Shown here one piece after another: positions 47,462 to 57,532 of a stretch of 64,000 nt of DNA (within the stretch, counting starts at the first letter, position 1; each line of letters starts with the position of its first letter). Source of the stretch: Candidatus Pyrohabitans jungbluthii (GTDB lineage Archaea > Hydrothermarchaeota > Hydrothermarchaeia > Hydrothermarchaeales > BMS3B); NCBI GenBank assembly GCA_002010065.2, contig MTMD02000010.1:1-64000 (forward strand), in the 5' to 3' direction. Under the pieces are notes generated by a model. The model was not told the origin of the DNA, made no database searches, and saw only the letters and a program-made list of their open reading frames with translations. Made by a program: the position numbers and the translations under genes.

Positions 47462-48634
47462 TTGAAGTTTGTGAACCGTTATAAGGACTACGTGGTCATA
47501 AACCCGCTCATGCGTGGCGGGATTCTTCCGCAAGAGGTGCAGGAGCAGCTCTGCCAAGACGGCTGGCTGGAGATAGGTTACTCGGTGTGCCACGACTGCA
47601 TCGAGGGAAGGAGCAGCCTGATTACCAAACCGCCGATTAGAAAATTTCTGAAACAGGTGGCAGAATTCTTTGGCGGCGATGAAGCGGAGCACACCTTCGG
47701 ATGCAGGGCGGCGCAGTACGTGGTGATGAAAACCATAGCCGACCATGTGAAGGAGGAGGGGCTTGAGCCAGTGGTGGTGGTCGACCCTAACTCCCACTAC
47801 ACCACAAATATAGCGGCAGAGATGGTTGGCCTGCGCGTGGTTGAGCCTCCTCATACTGGCTATCCTGAGTACAAGGTTACCGTTGAAGCCTTTCAGGAGA
47901 AGATCGAAGAGGTAGGCAGGCCAGCGCTCGTGGTTGCAACGCATGCCGACCCTTACTTCGGCAACATTGAGCCCGTGGAGGAGCTGGGCAAGCTGTGCGA
48001 GGAGCTTGAAGTACCCTTCATGGTAAACGCCGCCTATACTGCTGGCGTGGCACCGATAGATATGAAGAAGATACGCGCCGACTTTCTCACAGTAAGTGCG
48101 CACAAGAGCATGGCTTCTCTTGCCCCTCTCGGCTTCGTGGTGACCACCTACGAGTGGAGCAAGAAGGCTTTCGCAGCGTCGAAGTCAAAGGCGGAGTGGA
48201 CAGGCAGGGTGTTCGGGAAGAAGCTGCCCAACCTCTTTGGGTGCAGTGTGGGTGGAATACCTCTTATATCTGCGATGCTCAGCTTCGACTACGTTAAAGC
48301 GAGGGTAAAGCACTGGGAGGATGAGCTGAAGAAGATTAACGACTTCGTGGACAAGCTCGAGGATATAGGCGAGGGCGATATAATGCTCCTGGGCGAGCGT
48401 CCAAAGCGCCACCACCTGCTCCACTTCGAGACTCCGCTGTTCTGGGAGATTTCCAAGAAGCACAAGCGAAAGGGCTTCTTCCTGGCGGAGGAGATGCTCA
48501 AGCGCCGCATCGTGGGGCTGCACAAAGGGCTGAGCAAGCACATAAAGCTGAGCGTCTACGGCTTGAGTGACGAGGAGCGCGAGCGAGTGCTTACCGCTTT
48601 TGAGGAGATTGCAGCGCTCAGGGAGAAGCTGTAA
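47462..48634 (+). CDS. pscS: O-phosphoseryl-tRNA(Cys):Cys-tRNA synthase (SepCysS)
   Basis: This 390-aa PLP enzyme turns Sep-tRNA-Cys into Cys-tRNA-Cys. The PLP Lys is K215 in SAHKSMASL, and HTFGCRAAQYVVM binds the cofactor phosphate region. Three cysteines essential in studied SepCysS are kept (C43, C46 in SVCHDC and C261 in LFGCSVGG). The start is a TTG 8 nt after GGAAGGTG. SepRS, needed to make Sep-tRNA, is not in the window, and a normal CysRS is present at 30646. Confidence 0.93.
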   Translation: MKFVNRYKDYVVINPLMRGGILPQEVQEQLCQDGWLEIGYSVCHDCIEGRSSLITKPPIRKFLKQVAEFFGGDEAEHTFGCRAAQYVVMKTIADHVKEEGLEPVVVVDPNSHYTTNIAAEMVGLRVVEPPHTGYPEYKVTVEAFQEKIEEVGRPALVVATHADPYFGNIEPVEELGKLCEELEVPFMVNAAYTAGVAPIDMKKIRADFLTVSAHKSMASLAPLGFVVTTYEWSKKAFAASKSKAEWTGRVFGKKLPNLFGCSVGGIPLISAMLSFDYVKARVKHWEDELKKINDFVDKLEDIGEGDIMLLGERPKRHHLLHFETPLFWEISKKHKRKGFFLAEEMLKRRIVGLHKGLSKHIKLSVYGLSDEERERVLTAFEEIAALREKL

Positions 48635-48682: not shown

Positions 48683-49759
48683 TTACACCCCGCTTTTAAA
48701 TCTGTTCACACTTTTAATCAAAACCAGATAGAGAGGCAGAGGCATTAGCGCAAATAAAGCGAAGGGGGCAATCTCATAACTCCCACCCAGAGAGAGACTT
48801 GTGACCACATTCAGGGGCGATATGGTGCTGAATTGCATGCCCGCCAGGAAGAGGTTCATTAATAGCAACGAATACAGGAAGTGGGCTGTGCCCCTTTTCC
48901 TGTAACTCAGCACAAGAAGACAGCCAGAGATAATTAAAATAAGGGCGACGCTAAGAGTTAAGAGGAGGATTAAAAGTTCCCGCTCAACGGCGATGCCATT
49001 AAACTCCAGCAGCCTTATCCAGAGGTAGGACTGCACAGGCACTATTGCAAGGCAGACGATGATTTTGGCATTTATAACCTGAAGCAAGCTTAAGGGCGAA
49101 GAAATGAGAATGTCTAGGGTCTTTTTCTCCATTTCCTCTGTGAATAAGTCGATAATCAATCCGCCTGCAATAAAAGCGGGAGCAAGTATCAGCAATGGTA
49201 TAAGTATACCATAGACGAACTCAAAATAGCTTGATTTAACCCTGCTTTTCCCGATGCTGAGCTCATACCCCAGCACTTCCCTGATACCATCGGGTAAATA
49301 ATCAACTCTCCCCCTGCGAAGATTTTCCTCATACCTTTCAATGGGCTCCTTGAGATAAGAGGCTATCAATGTAGCTTTGATATCATTTTTGGGCAGATAT
49401 AAATCTATTTTAACAGGATCTGAGTATGGATCTCTTCCCGTAGATACCACCAGTATCCCATCCACATCATATCTATAAAAAGAATCAAGCGCTTTAGAGA
49501 AATCCTTGTAAAATTTCAGATTAAACTTTCCATCCTGCTGAAGCAGATTTATCAGTTCTTTGTCCTCAGATAGAACCGCCAGATCCACTCTCTCAAGGCC
49601 GTATGTGCCTAAAGTCTCTGGAGAAACATAACTCATAATTCCTACAACCAGAAAGGCGGAAAAGGAAGCTATTAAAAGTTGAATCAGCACCGTCAAAATT
49701 AGAGTCTTTTCCTTTATCAGACTCCTGAACTCCTTCTTGACCAGAGCTAACTCCTTCAT
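48683..49759 (-). CDS. ABC-2 type permease (NatB-like)
   Basis: This permease of about 358 aa has one N-terminal TM, a large external domain (about residues 50-180) and five C-terminal TMs including the amphipathic coupling region LFTEEMEKKTLDILISSP. It overlaps the upstream permease gene by 4 nt (ATGA). With that gene and the divergent ATPase at 51665 it should form an exporter of the Na+/drug-like NatAB class. The start at 49759 follows GGAGGGGG; a longer frame to 49858 lies inside the neighbouring gene. Confidence 0.85.
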   Translation of the reverse strand: MKELALVKKEFRSLIKEKTLILTVLIQLLIASFSAFLVVGIMSYVSPETLGTYGLERVDLAVLSEDKELINLLQQDGKFNLKFYKDFSKALDSFYRYDVDGILVVSTGRDPYSDPVKIDLYLPKNDIKATLIASYLKEPIERYEENLRRGRVDYLPDGIREVLGYELSIGKSRVKSSYFEFVYGILIPLLILAPAFIAGGLIIDLFTEEMEKKTLDILISSPLSLLQVINAKIIVCLAIVPVQSYLWIRLLEFNGIAVERELLILLLTLSVALILIISGCLLVLSYRKRGTAHFLYSLLLMNLFLAGMQFSTISPLNVVTSLSLGGSYEIAPFALFALMPLPLYLVLIKSVNRFKSGV

Positions 49760-51561
49760 GCTCCCCCTCCAAGCAAAGAGTAATTGTAAAGAAGGTGAGC
49801 GACGCCTGAAAGCGTTAAGAGGAGTAAAAACCTCCTGTTTATCCTCCCTCTGCTCCACACCAGTCCCAGAGCAGCTGTGGAAGTTAACACCACATGAAGC
49901 AAAAGAGCATTGAGCAGATATCCCTTGAGGAAAATAACATAGCCAAACAGGGACTGGGAAATCTGGGCAAGGGTTACAAGAGCTATCAGCTTTTCTCCGA
50001 TAAAGAAACCTGAACCGCAGAACGCGCCAAGGAGTACTGTTCTACCAGGGCTCAATTTGGAATACCTGACAACTCCAGCCACGAAGGCTATCTTGATAAC
50101 CTCCTCTAAGAAGGCAGAGAGGGTAAGCATCAGGTAGAGTGATAGTGGGAGAGGCACCTGGAATAGAGCCACTATAAATATTAATTCAAGCATGTACGCC
50201 GCTACCGATGCCAAAATTCCAAAGAATACGCCTGCAATTAACCTCTCTCCACCCTTCTCCCACATTATATTAATGCCATAAAAAATTTTGTCAAAGATGC
50301 CCTTCTGGGAAAAGAGTACCTCCTCTCTGAACATCAGAGTCCCCATGAAAAATATAATTGCGCTCATTGCAAATAAAGGGAGAGTTGTAAAAATATATTT
50401 GGAAAATTCTACTTTTTCGCCATCCATAACATTTACTATTATTGAAACAGGAGATATGTTGCTCACCGCATGTATATTCACAAACATAGCCGGAAAGAAT
50501 AGGAAAGAGAAGAATATTACTGAAATAAAAATTATAATAAAGGAATTTTCTTTATAGCTTCTGCTCAATATGGACACCAGGAAAGAAAGGGACAGTAAGA
50601 AAAGAATAACCGGAATCAGTATCAAGATTATCTCAACTTCCAGCTTCTTTCTCAGAATCAGCGTTATTGCTATCACACTGATCAAAGTTAATAAAAAGTG
50701 CGCAAGGGTTTTGCCAATTACCACATCCCCTGCGCTGAGAGGAGATGTCAGGAGCAGCTCAGCACGGCGATTTGTTCTCTCTTCCAGCATGCTCGAAGAA
50801 TAAAACTGCGAAAACAGGTATATTGGAAAGGCAAGCAGAAAAGTTAGAAGGACTGATTTAAAAGGCAATGGGGGAGAGAAAATAGCTGGAAGGGTTATCC
50901 TCGACTCTTCCTGAGTTATTCCACGAACATCAAACCTCGCCTTCCTGTACTTCTCAATCAGATTCACAACTTCAGAGCGGGGCAGTGATTTTGGGTTGAG
51001 ACTCTCAACCCTGCCCCCATCCGGGAAAGATTCAACTGCAGCTGAAACCTTCTGCTCCTCAGGCTGAGCGGAGGTGAAGTACTGGAACTCCTCGCTGCGT
51101 TTTAAATAATGAGTCTGAATCCATAGCGGGAAGGCATAGTTGACATGCTCTTCATCCACAGCAAAGATGGTCAGGGTTTTATACAGCCTTAAAGCCTGGG
51201 AGAGGGCATCCAGGGCTGCGAGCGACCTTTTAGAATCAGTATAAATTATCTTCGTCTCACCATTGGAGACCACAAGCAAATCCAGCTTTCCTCCTTCAAG
51301 CAGAACCTCCCCTCCATCTTTTATGTCCACTAGCCTGAACCTTCCGTCGTATTCGAGGGCAGATTTTATTATCCTGTCTTCTCCAGATATTCCGGCTGAA
51401 TACAGAGCTTGTCCAGATGATGGCGAGGAGATAGATAGTAAAAACAGGGCTATAAAAGAGGCGAAGAGTAAAAGAGTGAGAATAGTAACATTGAAGCCAA
51501 ATTTTGGCTTTGAACGTTTAATTTCCCATTTTGCTATGATCAGGATATTTTTAAAATTCAT
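49756..51561 (-). CDS. ABC-2 type permease fused to a PrsW-like membrane protease domain
   Basis: This 601-aa protein has an N-terminal ABC-2 permease half (about 1-415): TM1, an external domain of about 190 residues, then five or six TMs with the coupling segment SMLEERTNRRAELLLTSPLS. The C-terminal part (about 430-600) adds around six helices with PrsW-like protease motifs: EEVIK (E486, E487, K490), GFFIGEK (E523), LLHVV (H556) and a last H589. Glutamic-type intramembrane proteases use just such Glu/His residues. The fusion suggests a transporter tied to proteolysis of a membrane peptide or signal precursor. Confidence 0.75.
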   Translation of the reverse strand: MNFKNILIIAKWEIKRSKPKFGFNVTILTLLLFASFIALFLLSISSPSSGQALYSAGISGEDRIIKSALEYDGRFRLVDIKDGGEVLLEGGKLDLLVVSNGETKIIYTDSKRSLAALDALSQALRLYKTLTIFAVDEEHVNYAFPLWIQTHYLKRSEEFQYFTSAQPEEQKVSAAVESFPDGGRVESLNPKSLPRSEVVNLIEKYRKARFDVRGITQEESRITLPAIFSPPLPFKSVLLTFLLAFPIYLFSQFYSSSMLEERTNRRAELLLTSPLSAGDVVIGKTLAHFLLTLISVIAITLILRKKLEVEIILILIPVILFLLSLSFLVSILSRSYKENSFIIIFISVIFFSFLFFPAMFVNIHAVSNISPVSIIVNVMDGEKVEFSKYIFTTLPLFAMSAIIFFMGTLMFREEVLFSQKGIFDKIFYGINIMWEKGGERLIAGVFFGILASVAAYMLELIFIVALFQVPLPLSLYLMLTLSAFLEEVIKIAFVAGVVRYSKLSPGRTVLLGAFCGSGFFIGEKLIALVTLAQISQSLFGYVIFLKGYLLNALLLHVVLTSTAALGLVWSRGRINRRFLLLLTLSGVAHLLYNYSLLGGGA

Positions 51562-51664
51562 TTTTAATCAGAATTACTGAGGAATTTCTTAACCTTTTTG
51601 TTTCGATAGCTGAAAAATAATGCTTAAATAATCTGCTTCGAAAAACTAAGAAAGAGGTATTTTT

Positions 51665-52543
51665 ATGTTAAAAGTTGAGAATGTATCAAAAAAGTATGGT
51701 GATTTTCAAGCTGTTGATAATATATCTTTCAGAATAGATAAAGGGGAGATATTTGGAATAGTCGGGCCAAATGGTGCCGGGAAAACCTCAATTATTAAAA
51801 TGATAGTCGGTCTAATAGAGCCGTCGGAAGGTGAAATCTGGATTTCACACTACAACATCAAAACCATGAGTGAGGAGGCGAAACGGCTGATAGGCTACCT
51901 GCCCGAGGAGAGTCCTGTATATGAGGATATGACAGCCATCGAATACCTGGATTTTTTCGGAGAGATATATGGAGTAGAAAGGCAGGAGTTAAAAGAAAGA
52001 GTGGATGCTATTTTAAATGATTTAAATCTTAAACACAGGAACAGGAAGCTTGGTGAGATGTCCAAGGGTATGAGGCGTAAGGTCGCGATTGCCCGCTCCC
52101 TCATAAACAACCCCTCTGTGCTTGTTTACGACGAGCCCACTTCTGGCTTGGACCCCATAACCTCCAACTATGTAATGGAATATATCAGGAAATTAAAGGG
52201 TGAAAAAACCATACTTTTAACCACCCACAACCTCTACCAGGCAGAGAAAATCTGCGATAGGATACTGATACTGAAGGACGGCAGAATCGTGGCTGCTGGA
52301 CCTGTGGAGGAGATTAAGCAGAGGTTTGGAGGGGTGAAATATGCGCTCTGGTTTAGATTAAAAAACATTTCAGGAATTGATCTGCCAGTGGAAAATAGAA
52401 ATGGGTGCAGAGTTGCTTTTAGTTCTAACATTGAAGATATCAATGCTCTCGCTAGCGAGGTGTCCCGAAGGGGCGGAGAGATTGTAAAGATAGAACACCA
52501 TCCCTCAAATCTTGAAGAGGTGTTCTTGGAGGTTGTTAAATAG
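51665..52543 (+). CDS. ABC transporter ATP-binding protein
   Basis: This 292-aa protein has a standard ABC ATPase domain (1-215): Walker A GPNGAGKTS, signature MSKGMRRKVAIA, Walker B VLVYDEPTSGLDP and an H-loop with His in LLTTHNLYQAE. A C-terminal extension of about 75 residues follows, as in NatA/DrrA-type ATPases. It is divergent from the two permease genes with about 100 nt between, so it probably powers them. GAAAGAGGT precedes the ATG. Confidence 0.9.
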   Translation: MLKVENVSKKYGDFQAVDNISFRIDKGEIFGIVGPNGAGKTSIIKMIVGLIEPSEGEIWISHYNIKTMSEEAKRLIGYLPEESPVYEDMTAIEYLDFFGEIYGVERQELKERVDAILNDLNLKHRNRKLGEMSKGMRRKVAIARSLINNPSVLVYDEPTSGLDPITSNYVMEYIRKLKGEKTILLTTHNLYQAEKICDRILILKDGRIVAAGPVEEIKQRFGGVKYALWFRLKNISGIDLPVENRNGCRVAFSSNIEDINALASEVSRRGGEIVKIEHHPSNLEEVFLEVVK

Positions 52544-54814: not shown

Positions 54815-55840
54815 ATGCTTAGAGAAGCGTGCTGCTATGAGCGCTTAAGCGAAGGCAGAGTGCGGTGCAACCTCTGCATAAGGAGATGCATAATCAGCGA
54901 AGGTAAGCGTGGTTTTTGCAGAGTTCGCGGGAATCGTGGTGGTAAGCTGTACAATCTCCACTACGGCGAGCTTTCCAGCTTCTCTGTGGACTACGTGGAG
55001 AAGACTCCGCTCTACCTCTTCTACCCCAACCACCAGTTTCTGAACCTGGGAGGCGTGGGGTGCAACCTTGCATGCGATTTCTGCCTCACCTGGAACATCA
55101 CTCAGGTTGACCCCAACGAGGTTAAAACCTCGAAGCTAACGCCGGAGCAGATAGCCAGCGCTGCAAAGGCGACGAGATGCAAGGGCATAGTTTACACTCA
55201 CTCGGAGCCAACGCTAAACCTGGAGTTCTACCTTGAGGTGATGAAGGCTGCGAAGGAGCAGGGGCTGAAGAATGTGCTTGCCACCAATGGCTACATTACC
55301 CTAGAGGCCTTCTCCAAGATTGAGCCCTATCTGGATGCAGTGGCGCTGACCTTTAAGGGCAGTGCTGACTTCTACTCCCGCAGGTGCGGCGTCGCCTATG
55401 CGAAGGAGCACCTCCATGCGCTTGCGAGGAGAATTCGCGACGCAGGCAAGCACCTCGAGGTGGTGATGGTTCTCATCCCTGACGAGAACGACGACGAGGC
55501 TAGCCTGGCTGAAGCTGTGCATCTTGCCAAGCTCGGCAATGCGAGCATTATCTTCCTGCGCTTTTTCCCCAGCTACAGGATGGACACCCTCGAGGCAACG
55601 GACGAAGCGACGCTGGAGCGCGCTCTGAGCTATGCATACTCCAATGGCGTGGTCGCATTCCTGGAGAACATCTTCTCCCACCCCGGAAAGAACCTGTACT
55701 GCTCAAGCTGTGGAAACCTTTTAATAAGGCGCGAGGGTTATGGTGTTGTGGAGTGGAACCTGCGTACCTCTGGGGATAAGAACTTCTGCAAAGCGTGCGG
55801 GGCTTTGGCTAAAGTCGTGGGAGACCTGAGGAATGATTAG
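54815..55840 (+). CDS. Radical SAM protein, AmmeMemoRadiSam / PflA-like
   Basis: This 341-aa protein has an N-terminal Cys-rich segment (CNLCIRRCIISEGKRGFC), then the radical SAM motif CNLACDFC in a context typical of PflA-like activases (COG1180). A C-terminal rubredoxin-like knuckle follows (CSSCGNLL...CKACGAL), probably a second metal site. This build matches the radical SAM part of the AmmeMemoRadiSam system; Memo and AMMECR1 partners are not in the window. It overlaps the next ABC gene by 8 nt. Confidence 0.87.
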   Translation: MLREACCYERLSEGRVRCNLCIRRCIISEGKRGFCRVRGNRGGKLYNLHYGELSSFSVDYVEKTPLYLFYPNHQFLNLGGVGCNLACDFCLTWNITQVDPNEVKTSKLTPEQIASAAKATRCKGIVYTHSEPTLNLEFYLEVMKAAKEQGLKNVLATNGYITLEAFSKIEPYLDAVALTFKGSADFYSRRCGVAYAKEHLHALARRIRDAGKHLEVVMVLIPDENDDEASLAEAVHLAKLGNASIIFLRFFPSYRMDTLEATDEATLERALSYAYSNGVVAFLENIFSHPGKNLYCSSCGNLLIRREGYGVVEWNLRTSGDKNFCKACGALAKVVGDLRND

Positions 55841-56780
55841 GGTCGAGCGTCTGAGCAAGCGTTATGGCAATGCCCTTGCTTTAAGAGAGGTGAGCTTCTC
55901 CGTAGAGAGGGGTGAGGTCTTCTGCCTTCTGGGCCCCAATGGCGCTGGTAAAACCACGCTGCTTTCTATACTGGCGACGCTCGTGAAGCCAAGCGCTGGT
56001 GAAGCGTACATCAACGGCATCTCGATTCGCGATGCCAAGGCTGTGCGCAGCCGCATTGGCGTTGTCTTCCAGGACCAGAGCCTTGACTTAAAGCTCACTG
56101 CCTGGGAGAACCTCGAGACAATAGGGGTGCTCTACGGGCTACGTGGCGAAAGGCTTGCGCATCGCATTGCGCAGGTGCTGGAGCTCCTCGGCGCAAGCGA
56201 AGTGGCGAACACGCTTGTGAAAAACTTATCCGGGGGTATGAGGCGCAGGGTTGAGGTGGCTAGAGCACTCCTGCATGAGCCAGAGGTGCTCATTCTGGAC
56301 GAGCCCACTCTGGGACTTGACCCCAAGGTGAAGGAGGAGCTCTGGGACCACCTGCTCAGGCTTAGGCGTCGCGACGCGACGGTGCTGCTCTCCACCAACG
56401 ATTTGGAAATCGCAGAAGCGTGCGACCGCATAGCCATAATGGACCGAGGCAGCGTAGTCGCTATTGGCTCAGCGGCGCAGCTTAAAGCGAGGATCGCCGG
56501 AGAGGTGGTGCGCATTACAACGCGCGCTCCTGAGGAAGCACTGGAGAAGCTGCGCGAGCTTGATATTCACTCTCCCCGGGTGCTAAGGGAAAAGCTCGCC
56601 TTCATTGCCAAAGATGCTGAAGAACTGGTGCCGCGCATAGCGAAGCTCCTCGGCGAGCTAGCTCTGGCGATAGAGGTGCGCCGCCCTACTCTAGCGGATG
56701 TCTTCCTCTTCTCCACAGGCAGAGAGATAGAGGGCGACAAAGGGAAGGGGCGCAAGAAGCGCGGGAGGCGCAGGCGATGA
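55833..56780 (+). CDS. ABC transporter ATP-binding protein (DrrA-like)
   Basis: This 315-aa protein has an ABC domain with GPNGAGKTT, LSGGMRRRVEVA and VLILDEPTLGLDP. The H-loop position reads LLSTNDLEIAE, with Asn in place of the usual His that helps hydrolysis, an unusual change. The C-terminal domain ends in a strongly basic tail (Lys/Arg-rich last 15 residues). It is in one transcript with the permease downstream (overlap 4 nt) and the radical SAM gene upstream. Confidence 0.9.
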   Translation: MIRVERLSKRYGNALALREVSFSVERGEVFCLLGPNGAGKTTLLSILATLVKPSAGEAYINGISIRDAKAVRSRIGVVFQDQSLDLKLTAWENLETIGVLYGLRGERLAHRIAQVLELLGASEVANTLVKNLSGGMRRRVEVARALLHEPEVLILDEPTLGLDPKVKEELWDHLLRLRRRDATVLLSTNDLEIAEACDRIAIMDRGSVVAIGSAAQLKARIAGEVVRITTRAPEEALEKLRELDIHSPRVLREKLAFIAKDAEELVPRIAKLLGELALAIEVRRPTLADVFLFSTGREIEGDKGKGRKKRGRRRR

Positions 56781-57532
56781 GCACCTTAGCGTGCATCTTC
56801 ATAATCTGGAAGCGGGACATAAAGCGCTACCTGAGGGAGCGCTCCCAGATTTTCTCAACGCTTTTCACCTCCCTGCTGTGGCTGGTGCTTTTCGGCATAG
56901 GTATAGGAGCGATGGAACTCAAGCGCGTGGACATAAACTACCAGGCGTTCCTCTTCCCCGGCATAATATCCATGGCGCTTCTTGTTACTTCTGTGCGCTC
57001 CGGTATATCTGTGATACGCGATCGCGAATTCGGCTTTCTGCGTGTTCTGATGATTACGCCGGCGCCAAGGCATGCGCTTGTGCTCGGGAAGGTGCTGGGC
57101 GGCAGCACAGCGGCGCTGCTTCAAGCGCTGGTGCTCCTCTCCCTAGGATGGGTGCTCGAGGTGAGAGTAACTCCGCTCAGCTTTGCCCAAGCTGCGCTGC
57201 TTGTGGTGCTCACCTCCCTTGGCTTTGTCGCCTTGGGTGTGGTGATCGCAAACCTCATAGACAGCTTAGAGGGCTTCAACCTGGTTATGAGTCTGCTCAT
57301 TATGCCTGCGTTCTTCACCAGCGGGGCGCTCTTCCCGATATTCGTTCTCCCAGAATGGATGCAGACGCTGGCAAAGCTCAACCCACTCTCTTATGGCGTC
57401 GACGCCCTGCGCGAGGTTCTTGTTGGATTCCCGCCCAGCTACTTCGGCTTGGGCAGAGACGTTGCGACGCTTGCTGTGTTCACCTCGGCGATGCTCCTTC
57501 TGGCGGTGCTCACCTTTGAGAGGCGCTCATAG
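56777..57532 (+). CDS. ABC-2 type permease (DrrB-like)
   Basis: This 251-aa permease has six TM helices and the ABC-2 signature region (YQAFLFPGIISMALL, FGFLRVLMITPAPR, then LNPLSYGVDALREVL). Together with the ATPase before it, it forms an exporter of the DrrAB type; the cargo is unknown. It converges on the class V aminotransferase gene with an overlap of 6 nt. Confidence 0.9.
   Translation: MSTLACIFIIWKRDIKRYLRERSQIFSTLFTSLLWLVLFGIGIGAMELKRVDINYQAFLFPGIISMALLVTSVRSGISVIRDREFGFLRVLMITPAPRHALVLGKVLGGSTAALLQALVLLSLGWVLEVRVTPLSFAQAALLVVLTSLGFVALGVVIANLIDSLEGFNLVMSLLIMPAFFTSGALFPIFVLPEWMQTLAKLNPLSYGVDALREVLVGFPPSYFGLGRDVATLAVFTSAMLLLAVLTFERRS

Follow-up and report, generated by a model that had tools for sequence, protein, structure and literature searches.

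A protein of the deep-sea archaeon Candidatus Pyrohabitans jungbluthii (phylum Hydrothermarchaeota) combines an ABC-2 permease with a C-terminal membrane domain (residues ~440-601) whose motifs and profile relationships identify it as a divergent, minimal PrsW-type intramembrane protease domain. The gene lies in the window, the 64,000-nucleotide stretch of DNA analysed here, beside genes for a second ABC-2 permease and an ABC ATPase. The same three-gene unit recurs in other archaeal lineages, and the residues corresponding to the PrsW active site are the most conserved columns of the PrsW-type domain.

Gene organisation

The locus contains the following features.

48683..49759, minus strand: second ABC-2 permease, 358 aa, without protease domain (PF12698, 6e-15)
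49756..51561, minus strand: fused gene, ABC-2 permease and predicted PrsW-type intramembrane protease domain, 601 aa
49759..50244, minus strand: predicted PrsW-type domain, residues 440-601, five TM helices (hhalign, PF13367 in relatives, AF2 model)
49783..49797, minus strand: motif 4, HLLYN, residues 589-593 (H589, N593), from conservation
49894..49896, minus strand: motif 3, H556, from conservation
49990..50010, minus strand: motif 2, GFFIGEK, residues 518-524 (F519, E523), from conservation
50092..50106, minus strand: motif 1, EEVIK, residues 486-490 (E486, E487, K490), from conservation
50287..51561, minus strand: ABC-2 permease part, residues 1-425, six predicted TM helices (Pfam, AF2 helices)
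50872..51429, minus strand: predicted extracytoplasmic domain between permease TM1 and TM2, residues 45-230 (hydropathy, AF2 model)
51562..51664, no strand: divergent intergenic region, 103 bp, with the start sites of both transcription units
51665..52543, plus strand: ABC ATPase, DrrA/NatA-like, 292 aa, divergent (PF00005, 3.6e-33)

All three genes are located where a sequence-only reading of this DNA had placed them, with E486/E487, GFFIGEK (518-524), E523 and H556 correctly numbered and the ATPase divergent as described. The same reading had the two permease genes overlapping, as they do. A mechanical ORF call put the start of the second permease at GTG 49858 and thereby created an overlap of 103 nt, whereas the start is most likely the ATG at 49759, which overlaps the stop of the fused gene by 4 nt (ATGA). 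The 103-bp region at 51562..51664 probably holds the promoters of both units. The ATPase has the motifs Walker A GPNGAGKT, signature SKGM and Walker B VLVYDE. In the Pfam scan PF12679 was above its cut-off of 27.2 bits in both permeases, with 30.6 and 38.2 bits; for the permease part of the fused protein this corresponds to 2.6e-7, while PF12698 was just under its cut-off at 1.6e-6. AF2 modelled residues 45-230 as mixed alpha/beta with low confidence.

Identity of the C-terminal domain

Motifs, profile matches of relatives, conservation and phylogeny all bear out the extra PrsW-type membrane domain that the sequence-only reading proposed for one permease. Its C-terminal helices had also been expected to match a protease profile; directly they do not, since neither the window protein nor its isolated domain gave a PrsW or CPBP match in the Pfam and NCBIfam scans, and the assignment is therefore made through relatives, where the expected match was found. 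A 54%-identical relative from the same genus (L005) reached PF13367 (PrsW) with 27.2 bits against a cut-off of 23.5, the domain of L001, a fused paralogue on contig C11 of this genome, matched it at 2.3e-9, and the fused relatives L009, L014 and L030 were likewise over cut-off. The profile of the window clade's domain aligned to the Pfam-positive fused domains by hhalign with E = 1.3e-12 over 150 columns, motif on motif. Standalone archaeal PrsW proteins were detected by a profile of the fused domains with E-values down to about 4e-15, and by a profile from the window clade alone with marginal E-values, the best being 2e-4. The motifs EExxK, FxxxE, H and HxxxN/D follow each other in this order on consecutive TM helices of the fused protein. 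Searching a structure database by sequence with the domain profile gave no real match among solved structures.

Every PF13367 match in Hydrothermarchaeota was a fused-type gene or its contig-end fragment, so there is no standalone PrsW in that phylum to explain the matches. Some PrsW proteins of other archaea are similarly long (~500-600 aa; L096, L097, L099, L103-L106), and these were set aside as different architectures without an ABC2 match.

Conservation, selection and topology

The 27 fused proteins compared for conservation come from Hydrothermarchaeota and from six further family groups of archaea. All 27 share E486, E487, K490, F519, E523 and H589; position 556 is His in 25 and Gln in two, and position 593 is Asn in 25 and Asp in two. 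The conservation anticipated for E486/E487/E523/H556 is thus complete for the three Glu and nearly so for the His. Outside the window's own orthologue group the identity of the domain to that of the window is 17-31%, and invariance of these six residues across 27 proteins of such low overall identity is an active-site pattern far beyond chance. In published models the PrsW active site is formed by EExxK, a His on TM5 and HxxxD on TM6, and the conserved columns of the fused domain correspond to the active-site residues so modelled (PMC4602095). The PrsW-type domain is most likely catalytically active. Comparison of the window gene with that of genome G004 gave a dN/dS of 0.13 for the protease part and 0.10 for the permease, which indicates that the protease domain is under purifying selection much like the permease; a second, much closer pair had too few changes for dN/dS to be judged.

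A typical PrsW protein has about eight TM helices (PMC3482391), and the fused domain has five. In the AF2 model these follow the six of the permease at residues 440-465, 473-500, 505-531, 539-569 and 576-600, with EEVIK on the second, FxxxE on the third, H556 on the fourth and H589 on the fifth; pLDDT was 83 for the isolated domain and 62 for the full protein. Averaged over the 27 sequences, the predicted cytosolic loops carry 2.6-4.1 K/R and the outside loops 0.2-0.5, charges that fit one topology, with the catalytic residues all predicted close to the middle of the membrane and the C-terminus on its outer side. Fold searches with the full and the isolated-domain models gave E-values all short of significance. 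With the full model the best matches were ABC transporters, and a weak match to gamma-secretase chain C (5a63_C) appeared lower down; with the isolated domain, the only listed matches to reach a TM-score of at least 0.5 were multipass-translocon/BOS complex entries (7tm3_6, 9c7u_C). These chains are APH-1 and its relative TMEM147, which are non-catalytic members of the PrsW/CPBP/APH-1 superfamily.

Recurrence and evolution of the module

Across lineages the recurrent unit consists of the ATPase, the fused permease and the second permease. The 4-nt overlap of the permease genes was found again in many lineages, distant relatives included, a sign that the two partner subunits may be translationally coupled. 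Close relatives and several distant lineages likewise have a divergent ATPase; in the C11-type paralogues it lies upstream and co-directional. Neighbourhood comparison found no neighbour conserved between lineages beyond the three genes; the neighbours are DNA ligase, SepCysS, UPF0182, a DUF11 surface protein, MscS, a Na/Pi cotransporter and others. The sequence-only reading had proposed a survey of small peptide genes nearby: the module neither contains nor adjoins such a gene, and no small ORF recurs across lineages. Transport is predicted from the family to be outward; the conserved module has no substrate-binding protein.

Relatives within Candidatus Hydrothermarchaeota include Ca. Pyrohabitans JdFR-17 and Ca. 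Hydrothermarchaeum profundi, and further fused relatives were found in six other archaeal family groups. The distribution is patchy, the fusion being missing from several Hydrothermarchaeota genomes. Trees of the permease half and of the protease half recovered the same main groups, which indicates that the halves have been inherited jointly, and the second permeases grouped in the same way as the fused proteins. There are two groups, the window type, common to other archaeal families, and the C11 type, here confined to Hydrothermarchaeota. As the closest kin of the window type are in other archaeal families, the window type may owe its occurrence in a single genus to transfer. In other archaea the first permease also has unfused counterparts that lack the domain (L147, L148), and a single clade of all fused permease halves was mildly rejected by the AU test (p = 0.03, with long branches). 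The fusion may have arisen once, followed by loss in the lineages with an unfused first permease, or it may have arisen twice. A plasmid search with a fused relative as query returned one match, to the permease only.

Relation to known systems

The sequence-only reading had supposed that a transporter cutting its own cargo in the membrane, or regulated by cleavage, would be a distinct peptide-export or signalling system. Its distinctness is overstated, as a permease fused to an intramembrane protease of the PrsW/CPBP superfamily is an already catalogued kind of protein. The curated NCBIfam family NF041647 (ABC_perm_CPBP), an ABC transporter permease subunit/CPBP intramembrane protease, likewise joins an ABC-2 permease to a C-terminal protease of the same superfamily, but its protease is of the CPBP type (EExxxR) and the one described here of the PrsW type. 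NF041647 covers the permease half of the C11-type relatives L001, L009 and L030 and reaches the EExxK region at the same junction, but its scores of 72-93 bits fall far short of the cut-off, which is 435; for the window protein there was no match. Among 394 sampled archaeal genomes no ABC-CPBP fusion was over the NF041647 cut-off, the best matches being to the permease half alone. No description of an ABC permease-PrsW fusion was found in the open-access literature searched, and the PrsW-type, archaeal version appears to be undescribed there.

In PCAT, the C39-peptidase ABC exporters, a protease domain that trims the cargo is also fused to an ABC exporter. The PCAT protease, a cysteine protease, is soluble and belongs to another class of ABC exporter, and the Pfam scan found no C39 domain in any protein of the module. 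With the PrsW family (PF13367, MEROPS M82; B. subtilis PrsW) the fused domain shares EExxK, FxxxE, H and HxxxN/D in order on successive helices, and differs from it in having five helices instead of about eight, in the ABC permease fusion and in a divergence large enough for the window copy to escape the Pfam model. The exporter SagG, SagH, SagI works with a separate CPBP-type protease, SagE, believed to remove the peptide leader, and the exporter SkfEF is paired with SkfC (PMC4513790, PMC8172795); unlike the fused protein, these proteases are of the CPBP type on separate chains, and the peptide gene is in the cluster. The SagH model gave 14.1 bits for the window protein and 21.5 bits (8.5e-5) for L009, neither reaching the cut-off of 450. 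In the TMcin system the S2P protease TmcP cuts a TM peptide in the membrane and the ABC exporter TmcBC extracts the product (PMC13252029), but TmcP is a site-2 metalloprotease, the chains are separate and the cargo is encoded in the cluster. PrsW has also been found fused to other domains in the PrsW-toxin fusions, where an N-terminal PrsW precedes a C-terminal toxin and which have been proposed to process exported proteins (PMC3482391); these are without an ABC transporter.

Possible functions

In the proposed mechanism the three genes would encode one ABC-2 exporter, in which the ATPase is present twice and the two permeases pair as a heterodimer. The C-terminus of the first permease would place a minimal five-helix protease of the PrsW family (EExxK, FxxxE, H and HxxxN helices) beside the transport pathway, so that a protease active site would adjoin the exporter at a constant 1:1 stoichiometry. 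Such an arrangement would most simply serve the stepwise handling of one hydrophobic substrate, which is cut in the membrane and then extracted or exported with ATP: a TM peptide, leader or signal remnant, for instance, would be cleaved by the domain while inserted in the membrane, and the permease pair would remove the product. The whole would then be a one-chain version of SagE plus SagGHI, or a membrane-embedded analogue of the PCAT exporters. This coupled cutting and export by a heterodimeric exporter with a competent protease is the most likely reading, at about even odds. Counted against it are the lack of a conserved cargo gene, the missing direct Pfam match to PrsW, the Gln at H556 in two members, the five helices against eight, the non-significant E-values of the fold searches and the unfused L147 and L148. 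That it amounts to a distinct archaeal exporter class, in which intramembrane proteolysis of a TM cargo and ABC extraction form one machine, is a possibility that we regard as rather doubtful.

As no cargo gene belongs to the module, the substrate would be encoded elsewhere or be generic, which makes clearance of membrane peptides a serious rival, if a somewhat unlikely one. The exporter-protease would then expel and destroy membrane-inserted peptides for self-protection, such as foreign antimicrobial peptides, leftover signal peptides or orphan TM segments, the protease part limiting their re-insertion, with no dedicated maturation of cargo. A general substrate fits the absence of a conserved cargo gene from the module and its neighbourhood, and conservation across archaea fits a housekeeping role; CPBP relatives of PrsW are reported to confer bacteriocin immunity (PMC9298176), and PrsW itself is active in antimicrobial-peptide resistance (PMC4602095). 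Such substrates are nevertheless presumed ones, and the patchy presence among Hydrothermarchaeota genomes speaks against an essential role.

Regulatory and scaffold roles are less likely than either coupled handling or clearance. It is improbable that the domain senses or cuts a regulator or the partner permease, switching on the transporter or gene expression, with a cargo different from the substrate of the protease; the known role of PrsW is site-1 cleavage of the anti-sigma factor RsiW (PMC4602095, PMC3482391), but neither a regulator nor a TM anti-sigma-like gene travels with the module, and fusion to a permease would be an odd location for a general regulatory protease. A non-catalytic membrane module like APH-1 in gamma-secretase, serving to bind a hydrophobic helix or to stabilise the permease, would accord with APH-1 belonging to the same superfamily, with the weak 5a63_C match of the full-length search, with 7tm3_6 and 9c7u_C being, among the matches listed, the only ones with TM-scores of at least 0.5, and with the Gln at H556 in two members. 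In all 27 proteins, though of very low overall identity, the two Glu and the Lys of the first motif, E523 and H589 are however unchanged, as in an active site, and a scaffold is accordingly more improbable still. An ordinary ABC-2 permease with additional C-terminal TM helices and a Glu/His pattern arisen by chance would agree with the missing direct Pfam PrsW match of the window protein, but it is refuted by the hhalign result (E = 1.3e-12), the PF13367 matches of fused relatives and the invariance in 27 proteins, leaving it a negligible likelihood.

Separate proteins that couple intramembrane proteolysis with ABC export have been described in TMcin and SagE/SagGHI. A single-chain version, conserved in deep archaeal lineages, would show that both activities form one physical unit; it would provide structural studies with a compact target and open a route to the hydrophobic peptides that archaea process or expel.

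Module paralogue and neighbouring genes

The same genome carries, on another contig (C11:59246-62034; loci L001 and L108), a second module paralogous to that of the window. An ATPase, a fused permease-PrsW protein of 564 aa and a second permease are encoded there in a single co-directional run, adjoined by an ATP-dependent DNA ligase gene, and in Hydrothermarchaeota this is the commoner type of module.

The genes near the module in the window, and those downstream of the second permease in two other archaeal families, are as follows.

Window 47462-48634, +, Sep-tRNA:Cys-tRNA synthase gene (NF006810, 385 bits)
Window 55833-57532, +, ordinary, separate DrrA/DrrB-like ABC-2 exporter (ATPase and one permease)
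L107:2-1631 and L139:10067-12652, UPF0182 membrane protein, family f16
L138:10515-12359 and L137:5535-7367, DUF11 surface protein (about 610 aa, TM segment at the C-terminus), family f36

The synthase gene lies just past the second permease and has no evident link to the module. The DrrA/DrrB-like exporter, 3 kb from the module, is without a protease domain. In each of the two species sampled from one f16 genus, the UPF0182 gene comes next after the second permease, and in f36 the second permease is directly followed by the DUF11 surface protein, a possible substrate or partner of the module in that family.

Other PrsW architectures

Two further groups of PrsW proteins come from other archaea.

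L096:5635-7491, L097:6610-8382 and L099:7049-8797, about 600 aa
L103:6807-8330, L104:6106-7716, L105:6862-8349 and L106:7113-8570, about 500 aa, strong PF13367 matches

In the longer proteins PrsW is close to the N-terminus and followed by a long C-terminal part, which in one of them weakly matches a double zinc ribbon; none of the three has an ABC-2 permease match. The shorter ones occur in archaea with small genomes (0.8-0.9 Mb), and in that of L103, the one member scanned, PrsW is C-terminal, preceded by about 280 aa that carry no family assignment.

Natural variants

In the fused proteins of L005 and L098 the His at the H556 position is replaced by Gln with the remaining catalytic positions kept, L098 additionally having Asp in place of N593. 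These Gln variants provide a natural handle on the role of this His.
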